From: Beroe forskalii
Lineage: Eukaryota > Ctenophora > Nuda > Beroida > Beroidae
Assembly: GCA_011033025.1 (NCBI GenBank)
Contig: WFMF01000175.1
Location: 186,001-250,000 of the forward strand
DNA: 64,000 bases
Reading direction: 5' to 3'
In this document: positions 8,324 to 56,119 of the stretch, piece after piece
Layout: each line of letters opens with the position of its first letter
Position numbering within the stretch: the stretch's first letter is position 1
Program-made: the position numbers and the translations under genes
Notes under the pieces: model-generated
What the model was told of the DNA's origin: nothing
Database searches by the model: none
What the model saw: the letters and a program-made list of their open reading frames with translations, nothing else

Positions 8324-8425
8324 TCATTTTACCTCTGGGTCTGTGGCAGGTTCTGTGTTAGGGGCAGCAGCAGCTTTAGCTGCTGAGATTGGTCTGTACT
8401 TGCTGATCACTCCTCGTTTGTCGTC
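8324..8425 (-). CDS. IgR-A exon 30: tail exon 3, likely terminal
   Basis: Phase 0 at entry; reads KRGVISKYRPIS, as in IgR-B 34380-34463. A donor-like gtaaaa follows Asp-Pro-Glu at 8333, but read-through meets TGA after only two codons (8324-8326). I found no later exon before the N gap, so the tail probably ends here. A downstream exon lost in the gap cannot be excluded. Confidence 0.7.
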   Translation of the reverse strand, partial: DDKRGVISKYRPISAAKAAAAPNTEPATDPEVK

Positions 8426-25574: not shown

Positions 25575-25727
25575 TCACAGTTCTTTGAGTTCACTGATGG
25601 TAGTGTAGAGCCCCTCCGGATCGGAGGGCGAGGTGTAGGTAGGAGGTGGTGGTCGGGCAGCTTTAGGGATGAATTCCACCGTAGCGTAGGTGTCTTCCTC
25701 ATCCTCCACCGGGGGTGGTATCTCGCC
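25575..25727 (-). CDS. IgR-B tail exon 15, terminal
   Basis: 50 codons plus TGA (25575-25577), phase 0 at entry. EDTYATVEF, then ARPPPPTYTSPS, then EGLYTTISELKEL at the C terminus: three tyrosines and a proline run. Confidence 0.92.
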   Translation of the reverse strand, partial: GEIPPPVEDEEDTYATVEFIPKAARPPPPTYTSPSDPEGLYTTISELKEL

Positions 25728-28700
25728 CTGAAGCAACGCAGTTCAGAGCCCATGACAAGTGCTATTAAGTGGTGTGAGGACTGAGGGGTCAGGTTCAGAA
25801 CCCATGGCAAGTGTGAGGAGTCAAGTTCAGTGCCCATAGAAAGTGAGCACTGAGCAAGTGTGGACTGTGGAGGGGTCAAGTTCAGAGCAAGTGAGCAAGT
25901 GTGGGCTGTCATTGAGGGGTTAAGTTCAGTGAGCTGGTATCGAAGTGAAGTAGTGTCAAATTCTCAAATGTGTCTGAGAGAGGAGCTGAGTGAGGCCTGA
26001 GTGAACTGAGGCATTTCTTTGAACTGGAGCTGAATTCTCCTGCTCATCTTTTGCTGATAAGTGAACTGTTTTCCAATTGAAGTGGTTGAGAAGTGAATTG
26101 CTGTGCAAACTCTGATATCATCGGCAAAACGGTACTGTGACTGTATTTAGAAATATGTGCGTATATGGGTACAATTGATGTACATAATATACCATGTTAA
26201 AAGTAGTTTTAATCCAATCCTAACATTTTGTGTTTAGGAAGTAAAATGTCTTCACTGGCACAGATCAAATCGACATCATAACATGTACGTAACGCGCGGC
26301 GCGCGACATGTACTGTCAATTAACGAAAATAAGACACACGAGGAACCAGAAAATGTTTTCGCGCGTTACACAAATCACCCCACAAACAGCAAAATGTCAC
26401 AAATTGGCACGTTGCGATCGATTTTGACGAACAATACCTTCAGAATTACTGTAATCTAATAACGGTGACGAACAGGACACCCCCACCTATGAAAGTTAGG
26501 TCATAATGACATTATCAAAGCGAGTCATTTCAATGGAATGAAATAATGACATCGGAAGATGCGATATTTGTACTAATTTTGAATACAAGATGTACAAATT
26601 AACTAACTTACCGTGAAGTCTAAAACAGACAAAGAAAAAGTTCATTCACTCATAATTCATATAACTAACTTACCGTGAAGTCGCTCAAAGCGGCGTATAA
26701 TGGAACTTCAGGTGGCAAACCAACTTCCAACTCAGGTTGAAAGGGTGCTGATTTCTGAAAACAAGAAGCATGAACGTAAGGAAATTCTACTGACTACGGT
26801 GAATGAACAAAATATAAACAAGTAAAATATTAATGTCATTTTGTTGCGTAGTAGCATTTTACATTGAGATTGTAGATAAGGATGAAATTTGGGATATCAA
26901 AACCCATACTGATGCTTCAAATGACACTTGCTGAGTTGTGGAATTTATACTAAGCTGATTCTGTCTAATGATCGAAGCTAAAAAAGTAGAAAGTTGATGA
27001 GAGCAGTGATTTGAATTACCTTTTTCCTAGTCGCTATATCTACTTGAGCATAAACTGGGTCCTCCTGAGGGTTTGAAAGTTCTTAGTCAAATTTCCTTAC
27101 TGCAATTTATCTGATGTAAGTTGTATAAATGAGTGAATAAATATGCTATGATCTTCAATTCGATTGCAATTTGCACCTTTTTCCATCAACTTGCTCAATC
27201 CTTTCTATCTGTTCATTTGGAAGGCATCAAAGTCTTATCTACCTACTAACTTATTAAAGTATTAAGTGTCGGTTTTCAATTCCCATGATTGCGATACAAG
27301 TGACTATGTAACAATAAATTTTAATGTTTAAGCAGATTACCTACATAATACTATGTTATCAAGGGCTACATTTTTCATGCAATGTTTTTAAATCAGAATT
27401 TGGCCCTCTTTTCTAATCTCATTTATCCCTGCAATTAGAGGGCATGTGTTGCTAGTTTTTAGGTTTTTGTGTATTTTATTTTACTAATTTATTCAAAGTA
27501 ACAGATTGAATGCAGATCACCTCATTGAGATTGCCGTATACTGGGTCCTCAGGTGGTGCATCTAATATCGTAATATCAGCGTACTCAGACTTCTCCTGGT
27601 CAAAATAATCAACTTTATCAAATTATTACTTTCCTTATCATGCCTTATTTTGAAAAATAGGACAAGAAAATTCATTGGGGGATGGTAGAATAAACGTTAT
27701 AATGAGATCTTATGTTTTATCGAGTTATTAACATGAACCCTCTTAAAAATTTAAATTAGATGCAGATTACTTTGAACTTTGTTTGGTCACATATGGACAA
27801 AACTTGAATGGCATGCATTATTTCAAATTCGGTAGGTACACAGTGGACCAAGGGAAAGCCCCTAGAAAGCTAGAATAACATAGAAACTGAGAATAACTTA
27901 GCAATTACCATTTGTTTCGACTGGTCGATTGTTGAGTAAAGGGCGTCAATCTGAAACAAGTGATGATCAAATTTTATAATTTTATAAATCTACAGTACAT
28001 AATTCCTGTGGAAAAGCCAAATAGTGTCAGAAAAAATAGTGTCAGATTAAAGTGGTGTCAGTACGAAACGAATTCAATGCAAAACGGTGACAGCATGAAT
28101 TGACTTCAATGCAAAGTGGTGTCAAATTGAAATGGTGTCAGCAATGAATGTAGCATTTTGACTTACAGGATTGGAAGGCTTGTCACCAATCGTAGCGTAT
28201 GTCGAATCAACCTGGAATTATATTAGATGGTTTCGTTGAAGTACGACTGTGTTGAAGTCGAATCAACCTGAATTATGTTGGATGGTTTCGTTGAACCAAA
28301 TTTGTAGAATTAAAATTGTACAACAAAGAATGGTGCCAGATTAATAAGTGGTTTTAGCATTTTAGCAAGAAATGAGGTCAATGAGTCAGTGCAAAGTGGG
28401 CTCAGCATGAAATGAATTCAGTGCAAAGTGGTGTCAGCATGAAATGAATTCAATGCAAAGTGGTGTCAGCATGAAATGAATTCAATGCAAAGTGGTGTCA
28501 GCATGAATTAAATTCAATGCAAAGTGGTGTCAGATTGAAGTGGTGTCAGTAATGAATTTTGACTTACAGGATTGGAAGGCTTGTCACCAATCGTAGCGTA
28601 CGTGGAATCGACCTGGAATAATGTTGAATGGTTTCGTTGAACCAAATTTGTAGAATTAAAATTGTACCACAAAAATGGTGTCAGATTAATAAGTGGCTTT

Positions 28701-31700
28701 AGCAAGAAATGAGGTCAATGAGTAGTGCAAAGTGGTGTCAGCATGAAATGAATTCAATGCAAAGTGGTATCAGGATGAATTAAAATTCAATGCAAAGTGG
28801 TATCCAATTGAAGTGGTGTCAGTAATGAATTTTGACTTACAGGATTTGAAGGCTTGTCACCAATCGTAGCGTACGTGGAATCGACCTGGAATTAGTTAGA
28901 TGGTTTCTTTGAACTTTTGAAGTACTACGTAGTAACGATAAATTTAATCATGTGGGTACATCACTGTGAAGAAATCAAGTAATAAGTGGCGTCAACTGTT
29001 ATTAGTGTTACGATCAAGTGTTGCCAATAATATAAAGTGTTGTCCAGTATATAAAGTGTTGTCAAGTATATAAAGTGTTGTCAAGTAAATAAAGTGTTGT
29101 CAAGGATATAAAGTGTTGTCAAGTATATTGCAAAGTTTTGACAAACCGGTTTTGAAGTATTGTCACCAATCGTTGCGTACGTTGAATCAGTCTGCAATAA
29201 GATTTTTTAATTGGAGTACATCAAACATGGTACATAATTTGTTGATTTATGTAGTGAGTCAAATACAAATACCCCGTTAGTAAGTAAACGAATAGGAAGC
29301 TTTAATTTCTAAATTTTCCCTGTTTCGGAAGTTCTTACTTTTCTTAGTATGAATTATCAGAAACAAGGAAAATCAGATGCACATTACCAGCAAACAATGA
29401 ATAGCATACAAAGATGAAAAAGAGCTTTGCTAAATCTAAGTGCTTTTCTTGCGATACTTGCGGTAAGATTAATAACAGGTTATTTCATTTTTCAGTGGCA
29501 TCTGAAAATATATATTCGTTTTATAAAGGGCTGATGTCTGACAAGTTACATGGAATATCAAATTTCTTTGACTGGCTGTCTTTTTAAAAGTTTAAACTAG
29601 AATTCAAACACGTTTTTCAAGTAATGGTTGACTTGAATTTAAATATTTCAGAATTTATTGAGTTAATGGCTGATTATACGGATAATTAAACTCAATAAAT
29701 TCTGAAACATTTAAATTCAAGTTCAACCGTTATATTGTGAAATAAGTTTTTTAGTTTTAATAAATTCCAGTTCAAATAGAGTACAATGCCTAAATATCCA
29801 ATGGATTTTGGATACATTACGTTATGAAAACGACTTGATGAGTTTATGATGTATGTAACAAGAAATGAACAGAATTACTGTTAATGGTAATGTGTTTCTA
29901 CATAACCTAAAGTAAAGTAGTAGAGTATACACTGTAGTGGTGTGCTGAGAGAGAAAGTAGTTACCATGGTAACACGTTATTTTGTTATTGTAAAGGGTGA
30001 CACTTGTGTTACAAATAATATACACATAAGTGCCGAGTATACATGATATTTACTGTGCCATAACGTAAGTTGCCTTTTGTAACACAGAGATATGAACGGA
30101 TCAAATCACAGCACTTCTGTATGGTGGTTTGTAGATTAAAATTATATCTCTTACTCTCTTACAAGTGAATCTTCATAATCGTGATGAAACTTCATGGCTA
30201 TATTTTACCTATCAAGGTGAAATCATACCTAGAAAATCCTTTTTTCTCTCTCGAAGGCCACACAATTGTAGGTACATTACAAAATATACATTGGTAATTA
30301 AATCTTAACACAATATTTGACTCCTCACCAGGTTTCACTCACCTGTGACAAACACCAGGTGACATACAGTTTGAGTAAAGAACAGAATACCCAAATATTT
30401 ACCAGTGTGTTAATGTATAACTTCACAAAAGCGAAAGTTTAGATTCTCAAGACATCAGCATTTCGGATTCCAGATGGCACCGGTTTTTGGTTACATAAGG
30501 GCCAATAAGGTATTGGATATTGGAAGAGATTTTCTAGCTAGTTTGAAATGTGAAATAGTGAATTGATGACTGATGGTGAAGTGAAATAGAACATAGAATT
30601 TTGGGAAGAGGTTTTATTGTGAAATATAGAATATTTATGTCTGTTTTATTGTGAAATACTGAATATTTGTATCTGTCTTATTGTGAAATATAGAATATTT
30701 GTGTCTGTTTTATTGTGAAATACTGAATATTGGTGTCTGTTTCATTGTGAAATATAGAATTTTTGGAAGAGGTTTTATTGTGAAATATAGGATACTGGTG
30801 TCTGTTATATTGTAAAATATAGGATATGAAGTCTGGTCAGTATATGCAAAAATAGGCTCATATCTGTGCAAAAAATTCAGAACCTATCCTGCTATGTTAT
30901 TTGTGCTTCTTATCATGTTAGAAAACATATAAGCCCAGGAGTATTAAAAATACCTTTGGGAAACTTCGAAAATTGACCACGCCCTTTTTCCGACCGTGGG
31001 AAAATTTATCGATCACAGAAAAAATAAATTTATTGACATATATAGCATGATGGGTGTCTAAACCCATGTTTTTTGGGACGCTGAATCGATTGCAAGGGTT
31101 ATTTTTAGTCTCTGACCATCACATAAGTCATTAGTGACCACGCCCACCCTTTAGCGTGGGAATTTTTGAGTCATTTTCACATGATATTTTTCCAAATCAA
31201 ACTGTGGCATGTTAGGTGTCTAAACCCATGTTTTTTGGGACGCTGAATCGATTGCAAGTGTTACCTTCAGTCTCTGACCATCACATAAGTCATTATTGAC
31301 CACGCCCACCCTTTAGTGTGGGAATTTTTGAGTCATTTTCACATGATATTTTTCCAAATCAGGCTGTGGCATGTTAGGTGTCTAACCCCATGTTTTTTGG
31401 GACGCTGAATCGATTGCAAGGTCTATTTTTAGTCTCTGACCATCACATAAGTCATTATTGACCACGCCCACCCTTTAGTGTGGGAATTTTTGAGTCATTT
31501 TCACATGATATTTTTCCAAATCAAACTGTGGCATGTTAGGTGTCTAACCTTTATGTTTTTGGGACGCTGAATCGATTGCAAGGTCTATTTTTAGTCTCTG
31601 ACCATCATATAGGTCATTAGTGACCACGCCCACCCTTTAGCTTGGGAATCTCGTAGACATTTTCACATGCTATATTTTCAAACCAAGCAACACACAAGTC

Positions 31701-34700
31701 ACAAATCTTCTTTCATCAGTAGGGCAATTCATTACTTTAAGTGTTATGGCAAACTTTGCCAAACACTTTTTTTGGCAAACTCCAAAAAAGTGGAAGCATT
31801 TGCCAAAGTTCGCCAAAAATTAAACACCTTTTTGAGCACTTTTGCAACAATTTAGGTACCAATATTATGATTTTCAAGGATGAGGAATCGATTCCCAAGG
31901 TCTGTTTAACATTTTGACGTTATCCAGAGTCTGTAGCAGAGACCACAGAGAATAGAGTATGAGGCTACAGTAACAAATACGATATTTCATATCCTCTTAC
32001 TTAAAGCTTTATGCATTCAAGTACTACGTAGTCCGATCAAACCGTTGTATTAAGCCCTCAAACCGAAGCATGCACGCTACATAAGTCTGTTCAAGCTGCC
32101 TAAAATCAATAGTAAGGCCCCACTGTGACCATTGACCAGTTTCCATGGATTCATCCTCAGCTGTGTGGAGGCGAGTGGAGGCTGTGTGGAACCATTCATG
32201 CTCCACTCAGCCTCTACTAGGCTCCACTCAGCCTCCAATAGTTTCAATACAGCTCCATAGGCCTCAAATCAGCCTTTACTAGCAGTGGAGGCTCAGTGGT
32301 GCCAAGTGGGAGGCTGAGTGGAGCCTAGTAGAGGCTGAGTGGGAGACTAGTGAGAGCCGAGGGAGGATGTCGGGAGCCTAGTGGAGGCTCTTAGCGGTGT
32401 TCCAGGGAGCTGGAGTGGTGCCTACTGTCTAGTGGAAGCTCAGTGAAGACTAGTGGAGGCCTAGGAGCCAATTGGAGGCTGAGTGAGCCTAGTAGGAGGC
32501 TGAGTGGAGACTAGTGGAGGCTTTTAGCGGGGGGTTTTAAGGTGGGGGTGGGGTGGGTGCCCCTGTCTGGGGGAAGCTCATTAAGGACTTGGGGGAGGCC
32601 TTTTTGGGCCAATTTGGGGGCTAAATGGGGGGCCTAGTAAAAGGGGGCTGAAATGGGGACCAAATAGAGGCTGGGATTTTGGGGGTAGTGGGAGGGGGCC
32701 GGGGGAGGCTGTTTGGGGCCCAGTGGAGGCTTGGGGCCGTTAGGGGGGACTGAGGGTGGGGGAACTAGTGGAAACCAAGGTGAAAACAGTGGAGGCTTTT
32801 CCCTTTTGGAAACCCAGTGGAGGGCTGAGTGGGGCTTAGTGAGGCTGGGGGGAGCTAAATGGAGGGTTGGGGGAGCCCCGGGGGCCGTGGGCTGGGGCCC
32901 TTTTGGGAGGGGTGGGTGGAAAGGGGAGGGGGAGCCTTGGGGGGAGGCTGTGTGGAGCCTAGTGGGGGGCTGGTGGGCCTTTGGGCTGGGGGATAAGTGG
33001 GGGCTGGTGGGGGACTAGTGAGAGCCGAGGGAGGCTGTTTGGCGCAGGTGGAGGTTTAGCAGTGTCTAGTGGAAGCTGAGTGGTGTCTACTGTTCAGTGG
33101 AAGCTCAGTGAAGCCTAGTGGAGGCTGTAGAGCCTAGTGTCACAGCCTCCCACTAGGCTAAACAACACAGCCTCCACTAGACCACCACTAGGCACAGAGA
33201 AACCTCCACAGTAAAGGCTGACTTGAGCCTAGTGGAGACTGATTGGAGCCTTATGAGGCTATGTGGAGCCTATTGGAGGCTGAGTGGAGGCTGAGTGAAG
33301 ACTAGCATATGTTTGTGTCTCATTGAATTCCCCTAATTTTCATTCTCATCTCATTTATTGATACTTGACTGCCATATTTTGGAACTCACTTCTGAACATA
33401 ACATTCAAATTATTTTGCCTGAAGTTTTAATTGCAATTGAAGTTTTTAGTTGCAATACTTTAGATTCGATTCCGTAGTACGATAGTACGATATCCAACAT
33501 AACTCTATTAACATAATATTGTGTTCAGGATGATTCAGTATGAACTGAGTATCTAACTGGAAGAATGATCCTGTTGCCGTTGGATCTGAAGATCAAGATT
33601 TTCTAAAATAAATTGCCCTACTGATGAAAGAAGATTTGTGACTTGTGTGTTGCTTGTCGAAAATATAGCATGTGAAAATGACTCAGAAATTCCCAAGCTA
33701 AAGGGTGGGCGTGGTCACTAATGACTTATATGATGGTCAGAGACTAAAAATAGCACTTGCAATCGATTCAGCGTCCCAAAAAACATGGGGTTAGACACCT
33801 AACATGCCACAGTTTGATTTGGAAAAATATCATGTGAAAATGATTCAAAAATTCCACACTAAAGGGGTGGGCGTGGTCAATAATGACTTATGTGATTGAG
33901 ACTAAAAGTAACACTTACAATCGATTCATGTCCCAAAAAACATGGGTTTAACATGCCACAGTTTGATTTGGAAAAATATCATGAAATGACTCAACCCCAC
34001 GCTAAAGGGTGGGCGTGTGGTCACCATGACTTATGTGATGGTCAAATAACCCCTTGCAATCGTCCCAAAAACATGGGTTTAGACACCCATCATGCTATAT
34101 ATGTCAATAAATTTATTTTTTCTGTGATCGATAAATTTTCCCACGGTCGGAAAAGGGCGTGGTCAATTTTCGAGTTTCCCCAAGGTATTTTTCAATACTC
34201 CTGGGCTTATATGTTTTCTAACATGATAAGAAGCACAAATAACATAGCGGGATAAGTTCCTGAATTTTTGCAGGGTACATGCATATACTGACCAGACTAA
34301 TGGCGTCTGTTTTATTGTGAAATATAGGATATAAGTGTCTGTTTTATTGTGAAATATTGAATAATGGTATCTGTTTTACCTGTTTCCTGGGGTCAGGTGG
34401 AGCAGAGGAAGGCACTCTGTTGGAGATGGGTTTATACTTCCTGATCACACCCCGCTTTCCGTTCTGAAAGGGAAACTTGTGATATTACTTGTCTGGAAAA
34501 AGATATCAAGTTCTGAAAGGGAAACTTGTGATATTACTTATCCGTACTTATCCGCAAAAAAGGGATCATGGATTATTTATTGTCGACATACGTCAGTACG
34601 GAAGTGCTAATAATCATCAGCAATCGTCCGTGTCTCAATAGTAAGTAGGAAAGGCAAAAAACATATACTCATTCCGTAAATGGGGAAATTGATAATCCCT

Positions 34701-37700
34701 TGCGGTGTTCTATATTTAAACGGCAGGTGTTCTATGCACAGGCAAGGACCGCGTTTCAATGAGGAATTCCTTAACCACACAGTATTTTACCACACAAAAT
34801 TTACCACGCAGGATCCACTTGTAGGGTTCCTCATTGATGAAGCTGTAGACGCGGGAGTTTCGTATTTCATGTTTCCCATAAAATCACCATACAGTACCGC
34901 GATTTCTAATGTTTTATTGAAGCCGATGGGTAGAATGAAATACCTTCCTTAAACAAAAGTGCTATTGTTGTTTCGAGGAAGGTGGTACTCAACTTCAACA
35001 TTCAGTACTCTCAAGTTCTCACATGAATTCCACATCCCCCCTCACACACACACACTCACACACACACACACGCACACCCAAAACTTTTCGGGTATTACTG
35101 TTCCTCTCAATATTCACTTTGAGTTCACAGAACTTGGTAAAAATATGATAACATCGTGAGATTCATATTTCTGTTTCTATCGAAGTGAGTATAACCGTCT
35201 AGAATGAAAAATAGGTAGTTTCGTCCTCAACCCACTATTCTAAACCATAACAGTGACGTCACTCAGAACCATATATTATTATCCGTACAACACATAAAAT
35301 ATGAGTAGAAAAGTGGAAAACACAGTGCACTGAGTAGGCAGTAATATTATTCACTCTATTTCGTCAATAGCGTGCGTGTACAATAATTGCGTGGGTTTGA
35401 ACTTTGTGCTTGAGTAGACTTGAAAATACACCGCATCATCAAAGTACCACTTTACAACAATACCACATGGTTCTGCAGGGTTGTTATGCAGAATTGTGTC
35501 ACGTGATTATACACCAGATCACGTGATCATACACCAGATCACGTGAGAACGCATTACGTCATGCCCAGGAACACGTGTGTTGCTATAGCAACAAATACAA
35601 ACTAGGTACGATCAGTGTCGCGTGGTTACCGATCAATGATCATGTGATATGTCTACAAGGCATATCAAGTCTAAGTATTTTATATTAGCTAAGCAGGTAG
35701 TCGAATAACGGTGTGTATAGAGAAAAAGGAAGCTTTAGTGAAATACCGCCCAGTATTCAGAATCTAACCCTTCTTTTTGCTTTTCATCAGAAAAGCCCAG
35801 CAATACTCTTGTTATCAACTTAATATTTTATTAAATATCCAGGGCGAGCAATGGCTTATCAAATCCCCATTTTGATAAAATGTACAGTCCATTATTATAT
35901 TAAGTCCATTCTAGATTCGATATAATGCAACAAGTACATCAGGATACAATTTCCCGGGCGATTTTGCTCCAGAAAAACACAAATATGTCATCTTAATCAA
36001 GTTTTAAAGTTCATTATCGATACATATTTGCTTATTTGTCTCGCTCTTGGTAAGAGCATAGGTAGATTCAAGTGTTTAGATTTATTAACACATAAAATTT
36101 ATTTTCCTACCTCCAACCCGGGAGGGGGTCGAGCTAGGGAAGTGTAGGCTGCTTCCGAGTTCTTCCTCGTCAACTGTAAATAGTGTGGAGGTAACAGATA
36201 CTTTTAAGATAGAAGGTAAGGATCTGCGTGAAGGTGGTTACACGTTTATAACAGCTGATATTAAGCAATTGGTTGAAAACCCTTCAGGGCGGTCATCATA
36301 TTGTGTTTACCGGAAGTTTACACAATGTCCTCGGATTTGGGACACACTAAATGTCGAACCAAGTCAATTCTCCTCGACACACAAAAAGTATTGCAGCGTA
36401 GACTGCGAGTGTGAACAGTGAACCTTTCCAAGTTACCTCAGTTGGTTAGTAGTTGTAAAGACTCCTTTGGCGTGCAGGTAGTGTGAAGCAAGTAAAAGTT
36501 CAAAGTTACAATTATTGAAATACATAACTGCACCATAACCGGATTATTGCTTTATTGGTTACCTGTTGATTTGACAAGATGTCAAGATTCGAGTATCCGT
36601 CGCCAGGGTTAGTCACAGGCTGAAACAGTGAAACAATTACAAAATCAACTAAGTGAAAACGTAAAGACGTAAAACATATAACGGAGGATTGAAGTTGAAA
36701 ACTTGAAAATGATCGTGACAAGTAGAATAATATTACAAATAAAGTTTAGAATTCATTAAAACAAACTCATAAAAGCTGCTTTGAGGTTTGAAATAAATTA
36801 CAAACTTACAAAGAACTTAGGTTAATTAGAATTCAAAATAAAATTTTAAAAAAACTCACAAGGGTTGGTTTGAAGTTGGAAATGGACGCGTAACCTTCGT
36901 CAGTAGACTCAACTACAGGTCTATGTAGGTGAGAATACCCCGCCTAGTGGTGGAATGTTATTATTAATTATAATTTTACAGTATCACAACAAGTATAACA
37001 TTTTTCAATATCAATTATATAAAGGACACAGATACTTCGTCATCATCTCAGTTGTTGAAATGCTTATGGATCTACCAGAGACATATTTAATGTGGAACGA
37101 AATTTAGGTAATTCACGAAAAATGCCCCATCTTTTTAAAACTTCATCTTTCATTAAATTTCAATAATTGAGGTCATCATCGTTAATAACTCAATATAGGT
37201 AATATTGAGAAATTCACCATAATTTCGAACCTCCGAAACTTCGATCCCCAGATTTATTGTCCCACATTAATAATCAATAAGTCTCGTAAGGTAGACCATC
37301 ATGACAGCGGGTGCCAGAACATATAATAGCAGTAGTGCTGCAATAGCTCATGGTTATAAAATTTGTTATTCCAATGGAATAAAAGTTTCTTACCCTGTCA
37401 TTCACCGTCTGAGAATCTGCATATTCGGGGGCGAATGCAGAATTACTGAAGTGTATTATGACAAGTTTTATCACAAGTGTGCGACATCTGATAAAAAGTA
37501 AAAAGTGCGATTTGGGAAAACTCGCGCCGATCCAGTGCTCAAATCTTTATAAACTTTGCAATAATTGAAGACGTCTTGATGGATCTAGAAGTCAAATTAT
37601 GAAGTAGGTAAGCTAAAATGTCAATTTCTAAATTCTGCTTATTTTTTGAATAATTTATGCACATTATGCAAAAGTTCAAACTTACGAGTATTGCACACCA

Positions 37701-40700
37701 TTGTTGACAGCATAAGAATCCTTCTTACTCTTCAAGGCACCTTGATAAAGGAAATCTGTCAGAATTTCAGCAACATATATCAATAATAAGTGACAATTAC
37801 TCTAAATTCTTAAATTGTGGAAATGAGACGAGAACATTCAAAACACCCAATCAGTATCCTTGACAAAAGGCACCATGTCGCCATGATTATAGAATTCTAA
37901 AATAGAAATAAGTAACTACGATTCACAATTTTTATTGTCGTTCATAAGACCAACAGTCATATTACCGAAAATCATCAATCAAGAAATGTTTTAACTTTTT
38001 AATGATCTAATAATCAAGTTCATTCAAGGGAACATTGATGTGAACATATCAGAAACGCCAACGATGAAACTAGTAATAATTAGGTATAGAGGTATAGGAA
38101 CTACTTACTCTTACAGCGAGGTAGGAGGAAAACGACAAAGAGCACAATGACAACAATGAAAACCACACTCCCACCCACACTCCCTCCTATTATTGGTGCC
38201 ATATCTGTAATGTGAAAAATGTTGGGTGAGATACGATCAAGTTTGTTTTCTGAGGATTTCAATAATCGATCTTAGTTTTTCAGTGCATCCAGAATACATT
38301 TGAATTATGAACCTCTGTATAAATTCGTTTAGAAAACTCGTTACAAACTAAAAGATAACTAAAAAAGTACTTCAAGAAGTACTTTCAACGAGAGAATGAA
38401 TAAAGACGTATGGATATGAAAAGAGAAAAAGCAACATATCTTCACACCCTTCTATTATGGGACTGGAATGATTTTGTGACTTTTCTGCAATAGATGTTTC
38501 TCCCCTTCCTTCACCACTTACAGTCTCCACATAACACACATAAAGTCCGTCATCGCATGTAGCTTGGTGCTCAAAGTAAATATTCTGAAAAAGAAAGAAT
38601 TAAAGAATTTATGATTGTGTTTTCATGATTTGAAGTATAACTCAAATAACTTCGATCTTTAAATTTTTGCGAATTTTTGCGAATTTTTTTGAATAAATAA
38701 TTCAAAAAAGCTATGTCCTCCAATAGGTGGCTCAACCCAAAGATGGAAACGTGCAAATTAGGATATAAATAGTTTAAAAACCTCTTTCTTGCGAGTAGTG
38801 GACTGAGGGCTGAAAACCCTAATATTTCCTCTTGTGGTATCAAAGTTTTGGACGGTCAAACTGACTTTCTTCTGAGGAAATCCTGAAATGAATATTACTG
38901 ATTGAATGGGAAAAGATTGTTTGAACTTCTCTTATAAATAGTTATACCTCTCAAGTACTCAGTAATATGATGATAAAAACTAGAGGCACAAAATGTCATA
39001 CAATTCGCTAATGGGTGGTATACTAAGATACTAGTATAAATATACATATACCCGCAGCCTCTAGGGCTGAATTTCATATCGCACGCGCATGCGCGTGCGA
39101 TATGAAAATATATCCCTCGAGGGCGCTAGCCCGAGTGGGATATATATCGTATAGCACGCAGGGCTCGAAGAGCCCGAGTGCTATACGAAATTCAGCCCAT
39201 GAGGCGAGGAGTATATGGTATATATCCACTCGCGTGAGCTTTTTGGGAGAATGGCATATCTAAGATGAAAAAAGTTGAATGTTCAAGTAAATCCTCGAAG
39301 ATTTGAACACACAGGAAGGTTTTGCAACAATAATATTGAGTTTTTTCTCTAATTAACAAAAATTTAATTTTTTCACAAATGCAATACAAACACGATTGGC
39401 AAAGCTTATGTAGAAGTTATGAGCCCGAGGGCCCGAAGGGCCCGAGGGCGAAAATTTTAAAGGCGAATCGAATCAAAGCATGGATCAATCTCAAAGGTCT
39501 TGCAATCGAAGGATTATTGGCTAAAAATGTGGTTAGATGCTGTTAATTAAACTTAAAACACTAGCAATCTTGGAAAAACAAATAATAATTGGAAAAACAA
39601 ACAAAGGGGAAAATGGTAGCATGTCACTTTGTGAAACGCATCAGTTACAGCAGAACTTGAAGAGAGATACAAAACGATGAGAGAAAATGGGTTAAAATGA
39701 GCGTATTTACATTTGATGAAACTCTGCAGCACTGTTATAATAGACAAATGAGAATGACGTAATAACCATGGTTGAATATGGTAAGTCAATAGAATAAAGT
39801 GTCCCTCGAAATTTTTCTCACGGGAAGTTGCACAACGTATCAGAGTGTCGCGGTAATTAGGCGGCATTTATTTTACATCGTATCCGCTGTGTGTGAGAAA
39901 AAGTAATGCACCATTAATACTAATGATGATGACGTATTGCTCTCACTCACCTCTTGCTATTTCCGAAGAATGTGTAACCATGACAACATGGCAATGCAAT
40001 TAATGATCAACACAAATGCAAATTCCTAACTTTATTTCATGATATTGTATTTCATTCTCTCGTTTTTGATTTTGTATCTTTTTACTTCTCTTTCTCGGAA
40101 TGATTGCTTTTACAGAATTTTACAGAATTGCTGCTATCACTGCTATCATTGCTATCACTGCTATCACTGCAGTTCACTGTTTTCTCTGCTATTTGACTCG
40201 ACTTTTGTCTACTGTTGGCCACATATTTTGCTGAATATTTATTAATTCTATTTCGAAGTTGAACTACTTCTCATAATTTCATGATTCATTAAGCTGCTGA
40301 ACAATGATGAATGTCAGTTTCAGTGTTTTGACTCTTAACTTTCCATCGCCTCGATGTTTTTGTCGATAATCAACTCCACAAAAATCCTTCTATTTGCCAG
40401 TTTTTTGTCTCATGATCGATATTTTGCTGCTAAAATTGTTGTTGTGGACACTTTCAATGATCTCAGCCAGTTTAGCACCAAAAAATATTTTCTTCCAAGA
40501 GGCGGGCTATATTGCAACCGACGCAGAACTGCTCTCGCGGGACGGGCTATATCCGCTGGGTATATCAAATTTAGCATGCAGATATTTTACCGGGCCGCGC
40601 GCGCCCGCAACCTAAAATGTCTTCAAAAAGCGCACGCGAGTGGATATACTATAGAGTGTGCATAGAATGTTGATGAAGAAATTCCTATTGAAGCATTTAG

Positions 40701-43700
40701 CTTTATTAATATGATTTAGTAAAATAAAATAAGTCATCAGAATAAATTCAGACCAATTCAAATCTTTCATTATCATCAGTCTGGGGCTGTGATGAAACTT
40801 GAGAAAAACAATTTGTATAAAACAACGCCTGACAATAGCTTATTGAATAAAAGTCTCAGATCCCAACCTTCCACTTGACACTTGACAGTGACAACTGCAC
40901 CCCTTTCCACACTTGAATCTGGTCGCAGGGACAACACTGGCGTATTCAGATACTCTTTCTCTGGAGAAGAAAGGGATGATTATTGACCAAAAAGGGGTAT
41001 GACGGTGTAAAATATGCCTAAAACAAACCAACCATCAATCTAATATTATCTTATTCACTACTTAAAACAATATGTAATTCTTTATTGTTCTTCTTCAATA
41101 GAAATTGAAACCCACGGTGGGGTACCACTAAGGGCTTTGAAAGAAAGAAATTATGACATAATTATGAATTACATACTCCGATGACCGATAATGAATTACC
41201 TGCTACAGTAACTCTAATCGTAAAAGGATCTGCATTTCCAGCTATGCAAGTGAATTCTCCATCGTATGATACAGATGGCTTGTCCAACACCAGTACTGAG
41301 TAGAGAGTATAGTCGTCTGCCTTGCTGGTGCTGTAATTTCCAGTCAGATCAATATCTTTGTTGCTATGTATCCAAGTAACTTCATTTTCTCTGATTAAAG
41401 GTTTTCCTACTACAGTACAATTCAGTTCTAAGTACCCATCCGTCAGCACGTTAGTTGAGTTTGAAGTTATATCAGCTTGTATACCTCTAACTGAAAAAAA
41501 CATTCATGATTTCAAATATTTTTACCAAGTTTCATAATGCAGTAATATCAGGAGATACTTCAAACACTTCAAATACTGATAGATTGGTTAGTGACTAAAT
41601 TCATATAACAGAGATATGAAAGTTAAAAGCTACACATTTCTAACTGTAGTGAGCATAACATTCGCTGTGTCGTATCTTTCAGCAGATGATCTGACACGGT
41701 TGTACCCCTTGCAAATGTAATCTCCATCAGAATCATACTCTGCAGTAAAGGAGTGTTCACATGTCACCACATGTTCTCCTGAGCAAGACAAAGAAGAGGA
41801 AGCGCTGATTCCTCTGCTCCAAGTCTTTACTTCTGAAGTTGAGATTATAAAGTGGATAAAATTCTATAACAATCGTCACAAATATTCAAATAGCAAATCA
41901 ATCATTGATTGAAATTAATTGAACTTAACATTATCAAAAAAGACTAAAAACCTCTAGAATCCAATTGAACACTATATAGACTACTAGAAATTTCCTGATG
42001 GTTGGTATGGCTCTCTGATCTCAAGGTTACAATAACAAACTGCTTACCAAGATTGGGTAGTGTAAGATCCACTTGGTAGGGTGGAAGACCTCCATTTACT
42101 ACACAGGTTATAGTTTGTTCTGCTTTGTACGTCATGTTACTATCTGAAGCTGAAATTTGATGAAGATTTGAGAAAAATACGTAGATCCAAAATAAGTCTT
42201 TCATTTATTACACCTCGCTCCTGTCTCCATCACTTCATTCCTTCACTTCAGTCTTCACTTCGCCTAAATTTAGTACTTCACTCACTTCCCTTCACCAAAG
42301 TCTTAATTTCACTTCACCCCAGTCTCCACTTTTCTTCACTTCCTTTCAATTCACTTCACTTCGCCCTACTCTAGTAAAGTAGTACTTCACTCACTTCACT
42401 TCACCTCAGCCTTCACTTCGCCTTACTTAGGTACTTCATTTACTTCACTTTACCTCACTTCACTTCACATCAGTCTTCACTCCCCTTACTTCAAATCACT
42501 TCACTTCATGGTTACCTGGTGAGATCGAGGCTGTAACATCCTTGTAAGCAGTCACAGTAAATGTATTGGTTGCACTTTTCTCTTTATTATTAGCTGCAAG
42601 GTTTTTAGCAGTAATCGTGTAAGTTCCATCATGTGAGTAATCAGCTGTATCTTCACTTATAGAACAGGTCATTTCATTGGTCCCTGTACACTGGTTACTT
42701 GATCGGGACCAGGACAATATTACATTCCCATCAGGATTGGTAACTGTTACAGAGAAGGGGGGTCGACCACCATTCAGTGAAAAATTCGCTGTAAAACTGG
42801 AACCAAAATCCACGTCTATACTTTGGGGCTGTGGAATCTCTACATCTTTCACTGAAACAATAATCAGATCAAAATATCGAATAAAAAATCTAAAGTATAC
42901 TACCAGAGCCAAATCAATTTCAATTGGTAGAGTTTAAAACTAAAACGTACCGATGGTAATGATTGCTGACCCTGCATCTTCAACCACTTGGTTTCCAGCA
43001 GCTCTGTTCTTAGAAGAACACTTGTATTCCCCAGCATTATCGTAGCTTGCTGAAGTTACTGAGTCGTAAGTGAAGGATAAGGTTTGTCTCTGGGTATCGA
43101 CTACGACATTACTAGGGGTTGTACTGGCGTCTGTATTGTATAATGCTATCGGTTGTGGAGCAACACCAGATGAGGGAAGTTTAGAAAACTCCAGATAGAA
43201 TGGAATACGACCACCAATAGCGCTACAGTTGATAGTAAATCCATAGCCATATTCTGCTTCGTATGAACTCGGTGTTACAGTTACATCCACGCTTTTTATC
43301 ACTGCGACAACAATATTGACACTGCTTTGTTGTGGGTTTGTTGTTCCAGGTAAAACGTTGTATCCAGTGCAGGAAAACCTTCCTGTCAAATATTGGAGTA
43401 GAGAAAAATTGGGTCTAATCCAATTACAGAATAAATATGCCATGAAATAGTGAAAGATTTGGTAATTCCTGAATTGGCATTGCACACGTCACTGCAATAG
43501 AAATATCTTTGTGAGTGTCATGTTTGTAAGATAAAATCACACAATCAATATCCAGAGCATAATATAGTAATATCGGCAGGCTCACTGACACCTTCCACTG
43601 TCATCATAGGAGTTAGAATCTGTCATGTATGTGCAGGTTAGAACATTCTCTCCAGAACAAGTTAGAGAATCTGTGTCACTGGTTGATAATATTCCATCAT

Positions 43701-46700
43701 TTGATAAGGAAATAAAACATAAAATGATTGATGAGTTTCAATTGATTAGATATGATAAAATACATAATTGCTATTTTTAAAGCCAAAACAGTCAAACATC
43801 CGTACAAGTAATAGAAATTCAATCAGAACAAGAATTGCGCCTGCATTTTCCACTCCAACGTACTTGAATTATCATGATCGAGCTATAAACTTACAAAACC
43901 ATGAATTGATATTTGGTGGTCTCCCCAGAATCCCTTGTCCAAGTCAGATCACTACCAGTCTTTGGTCTTGACAGCACCACCTTTTGAGGTGCTAGTCCAC
44001 CCTCAACGGTGCAGGTGAGAGGAAGGGAACTCCCGAACTGGATCTCAGTTTCAGAGCTGTGCAAGAATATGGTGATTGTCACAACATGGTATGAAATGTG
44101 TAATATGGGTCTATCAAAATTTGTAAAAGAAATTGATAAATCATTAATTTCAATTAAAAATGCAATGACCATAATTTGTTGATGATAATTAGAAGGTATG
44201 AAATAAAAAAAAAAACGTCTCAGTGCTCTAAAGCTCTAAGATTTCAATGTCAATGTATGTTGTATTTAACTGTGTTTTTATATATAGCAGCCGATACACA
44301 GATTATATCGTATTCTATCATCGAGATTAGGTTTGCAAGTGTTACATACATACACCCTTAAGTACAAACCATCAATTAATGCTTGCAATCGCATAGATAT
44401 ATTCAAATTGAAATGCCTGAGTCACACCTTAATTTTCAGACTCGTCCAAGTTAGCAAGTTTGTGTGTGTGACTCAGGCATTTCAATTTGAAAATGTCAAT
44501 GTACATATTAGTTACCTCGACTGGGTTGATGAAACTTGCACAATCTTAGAGACATTAATAACCTCATTATTCGTTTCATCCTCTCTTTCAACATTATTTT
44601 TCACTCTGTTTTTTGCCAAGCATTTGTAATTGCCGGAGTCTTGATAACCGAAAATGAATTAATGGAATTATTACCCTGCAGTGTAATTACTTTTCGAATT
44701 TTTGAGCAATATTAATCATGTAATATCACCGTACCCAGCAGTTGAATTACTGTCAAGTGTGTAATTACTATACCTCAACTGTTGAATTACTATTCAAGTG
44801 TTGAATTACTATTCCCAACTGTTGAATTACTACTGTTGAATTACTACCAATTTTCTGAAACGGCCATTCGCACGAGTCTAACCTATTTGCTAACCTATTT
44901 GCTATCTCTGTGCGGATGTAAATAGGAGAATAATAAGCTCCTAATATCTGTTATCGCACTTTTCATATTAAGAACGATTCGATATAATCTATTCTTAACC
45001 GTATATATACTGTAAAACAAGATAAAATAGCGATAAGGAGCACATAATGTTCGGTACGATATATGTTATCTTCTTAAATATGGCACATTCGGTAGCACAA
45101 GATAAAGTAAATGATATGAGCACAATGTATAAAATACGATATATCTTAACGATATTATAGGGCAACACAAGATAAAGATTTAGATAAATAGATAGAAGGA
45201 ACACTATCGTGTACACCTAAATGGCGCCACCCAGACAGGCTTGATAACTCCATCCGTGTTTCAATGTTTATTTATCTAGTCTTAGAGATATAACGCAGAC
45301 TTGTGGCGCCATATATAGGGTGTTTTGCTCCGTTTTATCAAATTCAACTACATTATTTCTGTGCGCCGTCATTTCTATCTGTCAGTGTTCGTTACTTATT
45401 TTAGATCGGGATGAAGATAATGATTTTAGCGCAAAACTTATTGTTCAACCACTTCTGGAGGAATGGCCCCAATGGCTAAAGCATTCCATAGGAGGGTTGC
45501 AGAACTTGTGGCTGAGAAGAGAAGTGAGGAGTATAAAGATGTGATGAGTATGATGAGGACTAAACTGTCTTTCTGGTGTCAGTCAGAGGCTCTAGGGGCA
45601 AATCACCTAGAGTAGCAGAACTTCCATTATCATGTTTATCATTTAACTTGGTACCAAAAGGCCTCACGTATAATTCTTTTGTTCCAAATAAACCATAATT
45701 TTCAGTCTATCTTCATGAGTTTGTACTTGTAGATGTCAATTGACATTGGGTTTCTTTATATAACTTAACTGTTTTTATTTTTATTATTGTTCAACTGAGG
45801 CGTACATACATTCATTTTGATGAACTCTAAAGATTTAGCTGACTACATTTACATGTGATCGTGTTTATCTTTAAGGGCAGATTCTATACGAGAACCGCAT
45901 AAGATTGTAGCTCTCGAGTCAGTTGTTATTAATGTTTGTGGTGTGAATTGTTTGTTTTCGATTGAGTACTTAACTTTCGTGGTTCATTTTTTATGGCAAT
46001 GAAAGATCAAAACAAAATTTTTGTAAAGTACATATACATACACTACGTTGAATGCACTAACAGTATGTATCAATGCTGGGCGCTGGTTGTATCATTTGGA
46101 CTTTTGAACTTATTCGCTGAATTGACCCCGTTTCGATGATGATGTGATTCTGACTTTTACAAATCACTGGCAAATTTGTCCAAAATTCTCGCCTGTTTCA
46201 ATTATGTTATTATGAAATAGTGTACCCATTATTCATAAAGCATTGAGTTCGAATACTTAAGTTGTAAACCATCTACTTTGATTGATGCGTATATGGCAGG
46301 GTAATAATACAGTAAATACACACTTGGGTGTGTAAATTACCATCGTAATTGCACTCGCAAGCTCGTGCAATTACTCCAATAAATGCACTCGCAAGCTCGT
46401 GCATCTATTGCATGAATTCCACTCGCAAGCTCGTGGAATTAATGTGGTAATTACACACCCAAGTGTGTATTTACCGTATATAAATCCATTCAGATGAGAA
46501 GAGAGTAAAAATCATGACAGATCAGTCAGAACTGAGTGTACAGACAAAAGAAGTCAGAAAGGAAATAAGCGTGATAGCAGAAACTATCTGTGAATTGTGA
46601 TGTTAAATGAAAACGATACATAAATGGATGTGAGATGTCCATGGCCAGGACATCTTTAAATACTTAGATAGTTTATAGTTATTTCTAAGTCAGATCTAGT

Positions 46701-49700
46701 CTAGTCATAAACCATTCACTTACCGAAGTTTGCGATTGTTTCAATACATTCCAGAGTAGAACTATCTTTCTCAGTACAAAAACCAGCATCACTGTTAGAC
46801 TTAATAACTTTGGTATTGTGTAGTAACTGTACTAGATGCGGTCTTCTGCCTGGAATTCAAGGCGTATGATAAACTTGGGAAAACAGTAGGCCAAGGCTGA
46901 GTAATGAAAGGGAAATGGTACAGTAATTAGTGATAAGTAAATAAATTCCTCAATAAAATGTAAACGTTTAACGTAGAGTGAGTATAATAGTAAAATTTGC
47001 CAAATATTTTTATATCTGTAAACTCTTAAAAATGCAAATCACGAATAACGCAAAGAGTTCCTCAAATAACAAACCTCCAACTGCAGAACAAGTGATATTT
47101 ACTTCTGATCCCTTATCTGGAGTGTTTGTACTTGTTGTCATGGTAACAACGACATCAGACACAACTATCACATATTTCACAGTATCTCCACTATTGATAG
47201 GTGTGTTATTGCGTATATTCTCCCCTGAGCAAGTATATTTTGAAGTATCAGAAAGTTGTAACTTGTTGATGGTTTTTATGTAGGACAAGGTGTAGGTTGA
47301 ACGTGTGATTTGAGGATCATCTCCAGCACTTTGACTATCGTATTCTTTGAAAACTTCTCCATCTCTTTCGAATTTCAGCTTGTTGGGCAGTGGATTCCCC
47401 TCGATGATGCAAGTGAATGTCAGGCTACTCCCAACATTCAGTTCCTGATCTGCTGGTTCTTGTGTTAGAGTTGCAACAGCGTTACCCTCTGAAAAGGTGC
47501 AGTTAATATTTAATTGCAACTAAGGAGGAAAGTATGGAAGGGGAAGAAGGTATAAAGATGATAGAAGACATATTTTCATGGACCATGGTCAGATATAAAT
47601 ACTATTTCAACAAATTAGGTTGTCGAACTTAGTTGTCAAATGATCAATGTATAGTAAGATTAACAGAAACATTGATTATAAAGGCCTACCGATAACCAAG
47701 TCCTTGTTATCTGATGAACTTTTTGTCACTCCGTCAATAACATTGCTTACATCACATCTATAGTTCACATTGTCATTCAGATCAACATCACGCAATGTGA
47801 CTGTACACTCTTTTGCCATCGTCCTAACATTGCACGATTTTCCAATTAAGGTTGTGCTACCATCTTTAGCAGTTCTAGTGATGTTTGGAGATCCAGGCAT
47901 TGGAGATCCCTCCACTCTACAAGTTAGAATGACAGTGTCACCCACTTCAGCAGGGTTCTTATCAAATGTCAGGGTTGCAGTGCTCGCTTTAACTGTGGGA
48001 GATGTGTAAGAAGTGCTACATCCTTTATAAAGTTATTACTAGTTTCAGTAGCTGCTTATTACTTTGTTACATTCCTAGATTATAAGTTTAAAGTAAGTTG
48101 AATTTGCGTCTAGCAGTCGTAAAATTAATGAATCGTGTTACCGTAATTGTGCTAACTTTTATCACATTCCCAAAATTTAGCTTGCTTCAAATGGAGCAAT
48201 TATATAGTATTGATGGAAATTAATCAATAGCTTAATAGTTAATTACTAAATTGCACTCATAATCAACTCACGTACCATAATTAAGCACTATAGTATTCTC
48301 TGCAGATTTCCCCATCTCAGTACCATCTGTTTTATACCACTTAGTTGTAGCACTACACTTGTAAGTACCAGCTTCACCAGCAGAAAATGTTTCCACTTTT
48401 ATCACAAACTCTGATGGGGAATTCGGATTTTGAGAACAAGTTGTATCACCAGATGTGGTCCCTGCTAGACAGTCTAAAGTAAGGGAGTCCTTCGATACAG
48501 TAACAGATGTAACAGGGTACCCAGTAACATTGCATGTGAATTCAGCCGTTGTTCCATCGTATATACTTGTTGTTGAGGAAGATACCACTACACTTGGATC
48601 AGCTGAAAGAGAATCAATTGAATGTGACTTATAGAAATAGATTGACACTGTAAGCATGATCGACAATCCCAAGAGTCAAATTTCTGCACTATAATCAGCC
48701 AGTTGCCAGCACCACAATAAGATCTTATGAAAGTATGAAATACCACAACAAACGAAAAACAAGCTTAATGCACATAGAACAATCAAATTCGTCAATTTAA
48801 AAGAAGTCATACTTGCTATCACAACATTTGTAGTCTTTTGTTTCAAGAATTTAGCAACCCCATTATTCCTCATAATGCACTGGTATACCCCACTTTCTGT
48901 TGATTTGGGTGGTGATTGGAAGGTATATGCTGACGTAGCCACAGGGTAATCATTCTTATAAATCTCCCGAGAAAAACTTGTGGACAAACTGTCTGATCCA
49001 GCACAATCAATTTGAAATGGAGTATCAGAACTGGTTCCATCAGAAGTTGAGTACCACATGTAATCCGGAGAGACAGAAGAAAATGAAAATGTTGAGAAAT
49101 CTTCCACGGCAGCTGAAGAACATTGCTGATTAGTCTCTTAGGACTAAGTTTATAACATTTGATTCTTGCATTAGTTATTAATAAGAAAATTTCAGAACTA
49201 GTAGTGACGTAGGAAATAAAAAACAGCTATTAAACTTGAATCCCGATAGACTTGCCAGTCTGTGTGTAATGTTGGAGCTAACACGGTTAACAAGCTTAAT
49301 GGGGATCTTTCACATATCTATAAACTTATAAAAGTGGGACAGTACAGGGAGGCAGTACTAACGAGGTAGTTGGTTGAGGTCAAATAATAACATGACAAAG
49401 TATTGAATTATAGATAGAAGTTCTGTAAACATGATTTCAGAGGGGAGTAAAAATTCGTCAGATACGAAATATAAACTTTACAAATATGTGAATACCCCCA
49501 GAGGGGCCCTATAAAACAAGTCTAGTTTTTACCTTTAACAGTGAAAGTGATCGGCTTTGCTGGTGGTGTGCCGCAATTCGTTACTTTACATTCGTAACTG
49601 GATGTTCCTTTGGTTGCTGTAGTAACGGTGTGTTCTCTGGTAGTTGCAATAACATTCCCATTTTCAGTCCACTCGTATTGCACAACATTACTCCCAGCAC

Positions 49701-56092: not shown

Positions 56093-56119
56093 TGCAACAA
56101 CAATTCAAACTTTCAACTC

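Follow-up and report, generated by a model that had tools for sequence, protein, structure and literature searches.

A ctenophore multi-Ig receptor gene with a candidate SH2-docking tail assembled largely from small phase 0-0 exons

Introduction

What does the row of very small exons at the 3' end of a ctenophore immunoglobulin (Ig) receptor gene encode, and could its parts be recombined by splicing? The gene, here called IgR-B, lies on the minus strand of a 64,000-nucleotide (nt) stretch of the Beroe forskalii genome (contig WFMF01000175.1, positions 186,001 to 250,000; hereafter the window), where it runs from ~52.3 to 25.6 kb and encodes a multi-Ig receptor. Its last 15 exons join in one frame behind a transmembrane exon and are rich in tyrosine motifs, and we consider it likely that they encode a tail that docks SH2 proteins and that grew by exon duplication. 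Coordinates refer to the window unless a contig is named. C220 is the contig of the window, and the genome searched comprises 216 Mb in 1,134 contigs.

Layout of the tail exons

The transmembrane (TM) exon of IgR-B (38109-38204, minus strand, phase 1-1) encodes MAPIIGGSVGGSVVFIVVIVLFVVFLLPRCK, a peptide in which the helix was recognized by eye and which is the same in the related gene IgR-C. Behind it, 15 tail exons follow in a single frame on the minus strand and end in TGA. All have an AG acceptor, and all except the last have a GT donor. A sequence-only reading of the window had described such a row of small tail exons in one frame, and the splice sites and the open frame bear it out, except that one exon, T4b, had been missed. 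The same reading held that the internal exons past the second tail exon are all phase 0-0; this is the case from T3 to T13, and T4b extends the run to 12.

The start of T1 (37686-37755, phase 1-2, FLYQGALKSKKDSYAVNNGVQY) is ambiguous. The acceptor at 37755 scores 4.6 bits and an in-phase alternative at 37740 scores -3.8 bits; both keep the frame. The homologous exon of the neighbouring gene IgR-A, which starts at 10839, corresponds to 37740 and not to the better-scoring acceptor. The predicted tail has 328 residues with the first start and 323 with the second. T2 (37394-37445, phase 2-0, NSAFAPEYADSQTVNDR) has a homologue at C220:331853-331903.

From T3 to T13, T4b included, there are 12 successive phase 0-0 exons of 42-84 nt, each with at least one Yxx[ILV] motif. 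These cassettes are T3 (36860-36943), with a weak acceptor and two YxxPhi motifs (YSHL and YASI); T4 (36563-36619), whose YSNL is also a YxN motif; T4b (36111-36173, 63 nt, LTRKNSEAAYTSLARPPPGLE), recovered by a splice-matrix scan and homologous to 8597-8659 in IgR-A; T5 (34380-34463), with RKYKPIS and a homologous stretch at 8419-8360 in IgR-A; the four STYATI cassettes T6 (29147-29191), T7 (28841-28885), T8 (28568-28612) and T9 (28167-28211); T10 (27909-27950), with LYSTI; T11 (27521-27595), with SEYADI, VYGNL and a weak acceptor; T12 (27020-27064), with VYAQV; and T13 (26674-26754), with LYAAL. The terminal exon T14 (25575-25727) contains YATVEF, PPTY, YTTISELK and the stop codon, and has a homologous terminal exon on contig C1. 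In 9 of the 11 internal tail exons scored, the acceptor reaches at least 3.0 bits, inside the range of the ectodomain exons.

All 4,096 subsets of the 12 cassettes stay in frame and create no new stop, as had been expected of any cassette subset. Because T7, T8 and T9 encode an identical peptide, the number of different peptides is 2,048, and these contain between 7 and 21 tyrosines. An alternative exon, T0 (37847-37896), was rejected: including it soon breaks the frame of the tail, and its donor is poor by eye. Other phase 0-0 candidates, such as 29944-29879 and 28696-28568, either have no conserved copy or are longer forms of accepted exons.

Tyrosine motifs of the tail

The tail contains 21 tyrosines with the T1 start at 37755, or 20 with the start at 37740, and has 16 Yxx[ILV] motifs either way. 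An earlier count of 19 tyrosines matches the 37740 start without T4b and is corrected here. Searching for the strict pattern of the immunoreceptor tyrosine-based inhibitory motif (ITIM), [SIVLT]xYxx[ILV], returned the five motifs named in the sequence-only reading, namely four STYATI at a spacing of 15 residues and one SEYADI. YSNL and YGNL, which had been singled out as YxN sites, were recovered in the motif count as well, and a third YxN (YSN) straddles the T1/T2 junction. The tail has one PPxY (PPTY, in T14). The strict pattern of the immunoreceptor tyrosine-based activation motif (ITAM), Yxx[IL]x6-8Yxx[IL], has no match in the tail. Allowing valine yields one pair, YGNLNEEDPVYAQV, which spans the T11/T12 junction and is present only when these two exons are joined; allowing both valine and a spacing of x6-12 yields eight matches.

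Shuffling the tail protein 20,000 times gave a mean of 3.4 and a maximum of 10 Yxx[ILV] motifs, against the 16 observed. When a single copy of the VDSTYATIGDKPSNP cassette was kept, 14 of 19 tyrosines lay in Yxx[ILV] motifs (shuffle mean 3.1, maximum 11). The second half of the ectodomain has six such motifs for 28 tyrosines. An aspartate or glutamate occurs at positions -4 to -1 of 15 of the 16 motifs, where 8.2 were expected, a value reached by 3 of 20,000 shuffles; with one cassette copy kept, an acidic residue precedes 13 of 14 motifs (10 of 20,000 shuffles). Kinases prefer acidic residues before tyrosine. The acidic residues therefore favor kinase substrates over plain sorting signals.

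The density of candidate exons was assessed on the DNA as well. Across the 12.5-kb tail stretch, 17, 13 and 11 acceptors at three thresholds open a phase 0-0 exon with a Yxx[ILV] motif, compared with means of 3.7, 2.6 and 0.9 and maxima of 12, 7 and 3 in 409 overlapping windows of the same size elsewhere on the contig, scanned on both strands; the splice matrices had been trained on no exons other than 15 from the ectodomain. The acceptors counted are not all accepted exons; in a similar count, 11 of 16 candidates were accepted.

Duplication and selection of the cassettes

Comparison of T7, T8 and T9 revealed four differing sites, all of them synonymous. Since ~25% of sites are synonymous, four of four would arise by chance with a probability of ~0.004. 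The introns beside these three exons diverge by 8-21% downstream and 32-39% upstream. Between T8 and T9 lies a non-coding remnant of a cassette unit (28220-28300, minus strand, bounds approximate), delimited from repeat families D7 and D8 and an alignment, in which the acceptor region is repeated together with the first 11 nt of the STYATI exon. The remnant suggests the recent gain or loss of a cassette.

Relatives outside the STYATI row allow further comparisons of synonymous (pS) and nonsynonymous (pN) differences. Between IgR-A and IgR-B, T4b has a pS of 0.80 and a pN of 0.29 (LTRKNSEAAYTSLARPPPGLE versus INRTGSDATYASLARPPPWKE), and T4b together with the alignable part of T5 has a pS of 0.77 and a pN of 0.21. 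The terminal-exon copy on contig C1 differs from T14 with a pS of 0.75 and a pN of 0.11 over two blocks. These values indicate purifying selection on several tail exons, limited to those for which there is a comparison.

SH2 proteins encoded in the genome

We found 35 SH2 matches in the genome. At C358:1533958-1538843, pieces encoding an N-SH2 domain, a C-SH2 domain with linker, and a protein tyrosine phosphatase (PTP) domain occur in this order, with further PTP exons after them, as in a SHP-2-type phosphatase gene. Compared with PTPN11, the N-SH2 piece scored 1e-26 and the piece containing the C-SH2 end and linker 4e-17; NCBIfam, a prokaryote library, returned nothing for the SHP-2 pieces. 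Judged by these pieces and their order, the gene is a SHP-2 orthologue, and the genome encodes an SH2 phosphatase of the kind that ITIM receptors use. Coding exons for Src-type and Shc-type SH2 domains are also present. A tandem SH2 piece is nearest to PLC-gamma-2 and PTPN6. For the Syk candidate one piece was compared, which is nearest to RASA1, then to PLC-gamma-1, with ZAP-70 lower. An SH3-SH2 piece on contig C601 is nearest to BTK, with Grb2 second. Neither piece identifies a Syk-type kinase or Grb2.

Ectodomain of IgR-B

The ectodomain exons, most of which encode Ig domains, lie at 38446-52323 on the minus strand and were placed using Pfam Ig models, exon joins and the homologue P0001; the model leaves out 47.1-44.1 kb. 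Seven consecutive Ig-type exons, all phase 1-1, produce an open frame of 782 codons. Pfam Ig models match 8 of 10 IgR-B exon translations (E ≤ 0.01, some under the curated cut-off). One of the ten has no Pfam match, and exon 42499-42933 has weak MG2/PPC matches only.

Searching ~5.8 billion proteins with the 782-residue ectodomain, and scoring the 7,998 best candidates, a procedure that distant relatives can escape, returned a sole match at E ≤ 0.01. This is P0001 of Bolinopsis microptera, also a ctenophore, with an E value of 8e-169 and 42% identity over 100% of the query; 'hemicentin-1-like' is the source's own label for it. P0001 is homologous over the ectodomain. Its model, 1,116 residues long, stops within the Ig region; by eye it has neither a TM segment nor a tail. 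With the second ectodomain half and the tail as the query, no match at E ≤ 0.01 was found among 7,998 scored candidates. This absence is weak, because even P0001 went unrecovered.

Relatives of the tail and the receptor family

Outside the contig, a genome-wide search with the tail (338-residue query without T4b) found a single relative with a significant score, C1:2247818-2247991 (E 4e-8); two other off-contig matches, with E values of 0.9 and 3.0, are at chance level. The sequence on C1 represents the terminal exon of a second gene; it has a phase-0 acceptor and retains YATVEF and YTTI.ELK but not PPTY. The ectodomain family has no match there that could supply a receptor part, and the nearest Ig_3 among the matches listed is ~340 kb away. 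STYATI cassettes were not found elsewhere by this search, in which the gene's own STYATI exons score just E 0.002-0.04, so diverged cassettes elsewhere would be missed. A degenerate DNA pattern for the cassette proved unspecific with up to two mismatches (100 matches, versus 136 for the reversed pattern); with one mismatch it gave eight matches, four in the IgR-B tail and four elsewhere. The tail has no Pfam match. In the PDB it matched UspA1 (E 0.0005) and mS125 (E 0.6); these two alignments run along the STYATIG repeat or regions of low complexity, and we attribute them to chance.

Exons of the ectodomain family are concentrated on C220, which holds at least 30 of at least 32 matches, with single ones on C192 and C895. 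The match on C192 (441659-441994) is an isolated copy, 88% identical, of the first Ig exon of IgR-B and contains stops. The nearest relative of the IgR-B TM exon is in IgR-C (C220 ~263-280 kb): the peptides are identical with one synonymous change, and the DNA match extends over 142 bp (95.8%) and stops ~14 bp into the next intron. By eye, IgR-C has a short tail with four tyrosines and one YxxV, in which a pair of small exons precedes a terminal exon that ends in NPLYEQVYADQWESPGDKTSSRVKTIITC. This tail contrasts with the IgR-B cassette row and does not repeat it. IgR-A (~8-22 kb in the window) has T1-, T4b- and T5-like exons in common with IgR-B; past T5, no convincing terminal exon was found from window position 8350 to 13 kb below the window start. 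A plus-strand copy has a 3' end (C220 ~330-341 kb) that looks degenerate; by eye it contains two T2 exons, one B-like and one C-like, and a terminal exon that is C-like but broken. The tail differences among IgR-A, IgR-C and the plus-strand copy suggest that the outer part of the receptor and the tail are separately evolving modules, rearranged by duplication and perhaps by exchange.

Neighbouring sequence features

The T5-T6 intron contains a pair of inverted repeats (30871-31733 and 33607-34269) of ~650 bp that are 89% identical and look like a mobile element; one arm contains units offset by ~162 bp. A degenerate tandem repeat of the cctccactaggctccactcag type occupies 32190-33310, with related copies at C220 244.6-245.5 kb and 302.1-303.7 kb. 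On the minus strand at 55199-56104 is an open frame of 301 amino acids that by eye resembles a protein of the ORF1 type of long interspersed nuclear elements. Below the window, at C220 ~172.4-172.8 kb (minus strand), are exons encoding GLRYMNSTDLVHLDIKPGNIIISHRE and VADDENRKGMFYKVGDLGMVTKISDPKVEDVDVRHLPRELIDD, which resemble those of a Wee1-type kinase.

Comparison with known systems

A close parallel in architecture is PECAM-1, which like IgR-B has a multi-Ig ectodomain, one TM segment and an ITIM tail spread over several exons. Its cytoplasmic domain carries two ITIMs and is encoded by eight alternatively spliced exons, and SHP-2 binding is lost in variants that lack exon 14 (PMC5664058). 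IgR-B has the small in-frame tail exons of such PECAM-1-type modular tails. It differs in having five ITIMs and 16 YxxPhi motifs on 15 exons, where PECAM-1 has two ITIMs; no homology between the tails was found, and it is for PECAM-1 that splicing is documented.

Among invertebrates, the FcoR proteins of Botryllus are Ig-type receptors from a variable cluster; their tails contain core Yxx[ILV] motifs, half of them with an acidic residue upstream, as well as ITIM and hemITAM motifs, which the oligomorphic loci exchange for one another through alternative splicing (PMC12065747). These tunicate receptors have an ectodomain of sushi and Ig domains, whereas IgR-B has a row of 12 phase 0-0 cassettes, three with identical peptides. 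In Hydractinia, the Alr genes form a cnidarian cluster of Ig type with ITIM and ITAM motifs on candidate genes (PMC12065747), and the family has 41 members (PMC11999971); Alr and IgR-B come from different phyla and are both of Ig type with ITIM motifs. The oyster protein CgIgIT2 has five Ig domains, a TM segment and one ITAM (PMC11999971), whereas IgR-B has no strict ITAM. Isoforms of Drosophila Draper differ in ITAM and ITIM, and the ITIM of Draper-II is bound by the phosphatase Corkscrew (PMC9008705). Draper has alternative tails, whereas IgR-B has a cassette row. Draper is not an Ig receptor.

The sequence-only reading had regarded a modular motif tail in an invertebrate Ig receptor as notable. 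The tail is there, but it does not stand alone, as invertebrate receptors with ITIM, hemITAM or ITAM motifs have been published, some of them switching between isoforms. As to descent from PECAM-1, FcoR or Alr, no tail homologue was found, and among the 7,998 candidates scored the sole match of the ectodomain is to a ctenophore protein. A 2025 paper on Mnemiopsis immune genes contains no mention of ITIM, SYK or tyrosine in its main text (PMC11797021), and we found no paper that treats ctenophores and ITIMs together in a literature that mostly excludes subscription papers. Precedents exist for each element of IgR-B. What is new to us is that phase 0-0 cassettes, most with a single motif, form so long a row, and that they occur in a ctenophore.

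Discussion

We propose that IgR-B is a ctenophore type I membrane receptor in which a single transmembrane helix would link a series of Ig domains to a phosphotyrosine docking array of ~328 residues. On engagement of the receptor, the Yxx[ILV] tyrosines with acidic flanks would become substrates of a Src-type kinase. SH2 proteins would then bind and set the output, foremost a SHP-2-type phosphatase on adjacent ITIM-like motifs, and other SH2 adaptors would occupy other motifs of the tail. The array would have expanded as symmetric phase 0-0 micro-exons (T6 to T9) were duplicated. It differs between neighbouring paralogues, so that tail length and motif content would be set at the level of the gene; setting them at the level of the isoform, by exon skipping, would be permitted by the exon phases. 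In our reading, at least one part of the docking tail would recruit SHP-2, and the net effect could be inhibitory or that of a LAT-like scaffold.

Several observations weigh against a docking tail grown by exon duplication, which we still regard as probable. The tail is known here from genome sequence alone. The strict ITIM pattern fits only 5 of the 16 Yxx[ILV] motifs. The acceptors of T3 (-1.6 bits) and T11 (-0.8 bits) score below those of every ectodomain exon (2.8 to 13.6 bits, leave-one-out). A protein search with the tail, a check proposed earlier, drew 1,128 candidates from 5.8 billion proteins, and none of them was a homologue at E ≤ 10. T6 differs from T7-T9 by five to six nonsynonymous and three to five synonymous changes, so the constraint on the cassette holds for T7-T9 only, and T2 differs from its relative at C220 331.9 kb by two synonymous and three nonsynonymous changes (pS 0.18, pN 0.08), which are too few to judge. 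Comparisons of selection cover T2, T4b, part of T5, T6-T9 and T14; T3, T4 and T10-T13 are without a relative.

A further point of this kind comes from the ectodomain. The Ig exon at 41832-41644 (minus strand) reads ACAG|TT at its 3' edge, so that TT stands where a GT donor is expected; the best nearby in-phase GT scores 1.1 bits, and skipping the exon preserves the frame. The corresponding edge is likewise ACAG|TT in IgR-C (near C220:272052), ACAG|GT in the copy at C220:329135, and GC in IgR-A. The copies at C220:320074 and 324494 have TT at the edge and, 20 nt downstream, a good GT whose phase does not match that of the usual edge. The exon may be skipped or use a rare donor, or there may be an assembly error or decay. 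This donor slightly lowers our confidence in the docking tail and slightly raises the chance that IgR-B is a decaying duplicate, that is, a pseudogene or unexpressed paralogue whose tail exons are fossils. Also in keeping with decay are the degenerate-looking 3' end of the plus-strand copy (C220 ~330-341 kb) and the incomplete cassette between T8 and T9, and the non-GT donor is common to IgR-B and IgR-C. Yet the frame is free of stops through 782 codons of Ig exons and through 920 codons when joined across the non-GT donor, the changes among T7-T9 are synonymous only, pN/pS is low in the shared exons, and the transmembrane peptide is the same as in IgR-C. We find decay improbable.

The other alternatives concern what an intact tail would do. 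The 12 phase 0-0 cassettes might be included or skipped in many combinations per cell or tissue, and the resulting tails would differ in their inhibitory and other motifs. The 4,096 in-frame subsets, with 2,048 distinct peptides and no new stop, would allow this; T3 and T11 have weak acceptors, as in regulated exons, and PECAM-1 tail exons and Botryllus FcoR loci are alternatively spliced. However, phase symmetry is no proof of splicing, because symmetric phases are also a requirement of exon duplication, which propagates them and leaves them behind in any case. The seven Ig exons are symmetric too (1-1), and with 9 of the 11 scored acceptors at 3.0 bits or above, constitutive use is as likely. 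Such splicing strikes us as possible but rather unlikely. The 'combinatorial inhibitory/activating' tail of the sequence-only reading is not supported in that form: the tail has no strict ITAM and one V-relaxed pair, and duplication also yields the phase symmetry. A wider form of the idea is that a tandem multi-Ig family codes its output combinatorially, with micro-exon cassettes of about one phosphotyrosine motif each being duplicated, exchanged between paralogues and spliced, so that how many SHP-2-recruiting and other motifs there are, and how they are spaced, is tuned per gene and isoform; we put this forward tentatively and think it unlikely.

Alternatively, a long tail that is constitutively included might be a LAT-like assembly scaffold that holds several SH2 proteins together, and not an inhibitory receptor. 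The acidic residue before 15 of the 16 Yxx[ILV] tyrosines, the three YxN sites, the tandem SH2 piece nearest PLC-gamma-2 and PTPN6, and the Shc-type SH2 in the genome would suit a scaffold, and a review of Botryllus likens the core Yxx[ILV] motifs, half of which have an acidic residue upstream, to LAT and SLP-76 sites. Four successive STYATI motifs, SEYADI and the SHP-2 orthologue favor instead a part that recruits a phosphatase, and the SH3-SH2 piece on C601 is closer to BTK than to Grb2. We take the scaffold to be a serious possibility without favoring it. Finally, Yxx[ILV] is also the pattern of sorting signals, and PPxY that of a WW-domain site. The array might thus consist mainly of AP-2-type endocytic signals, with PPTY as a WW site, and govern receptor uptake. 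The motif pattern and the one PPxY fit such a role, but the acidic enrichment before the tyrosines indicates kinase sites, the terminal-exon copy on C1 retains both YxxPhi tyrosines and loses PPTY, and an array of 16 signals would be unusual; we consider this very unlikely.

The docking tail that we favor would matter in two respects. The cassette row offers a natural test case in which the number of docking sites changes by exon duplication under selection, with three cassette copies keeping the same peptide while their introns diverged. Comb jellies, in turn, may represent the sister lineage of all other animals. An ITIM-rich Ig receptor together with a SHP-2 orthologue in such an animal would date the receptor/phosphatase logic seen in natural killer cells, and in the allorecognition of cnidarians and tunicates, to the root of animals or close to it, or else show that it originated repeatedly. 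If the combinatorial reading were true, motif-coded immunoreceptor signalling would reach back to the base of the animals, or would have arisen there separately.

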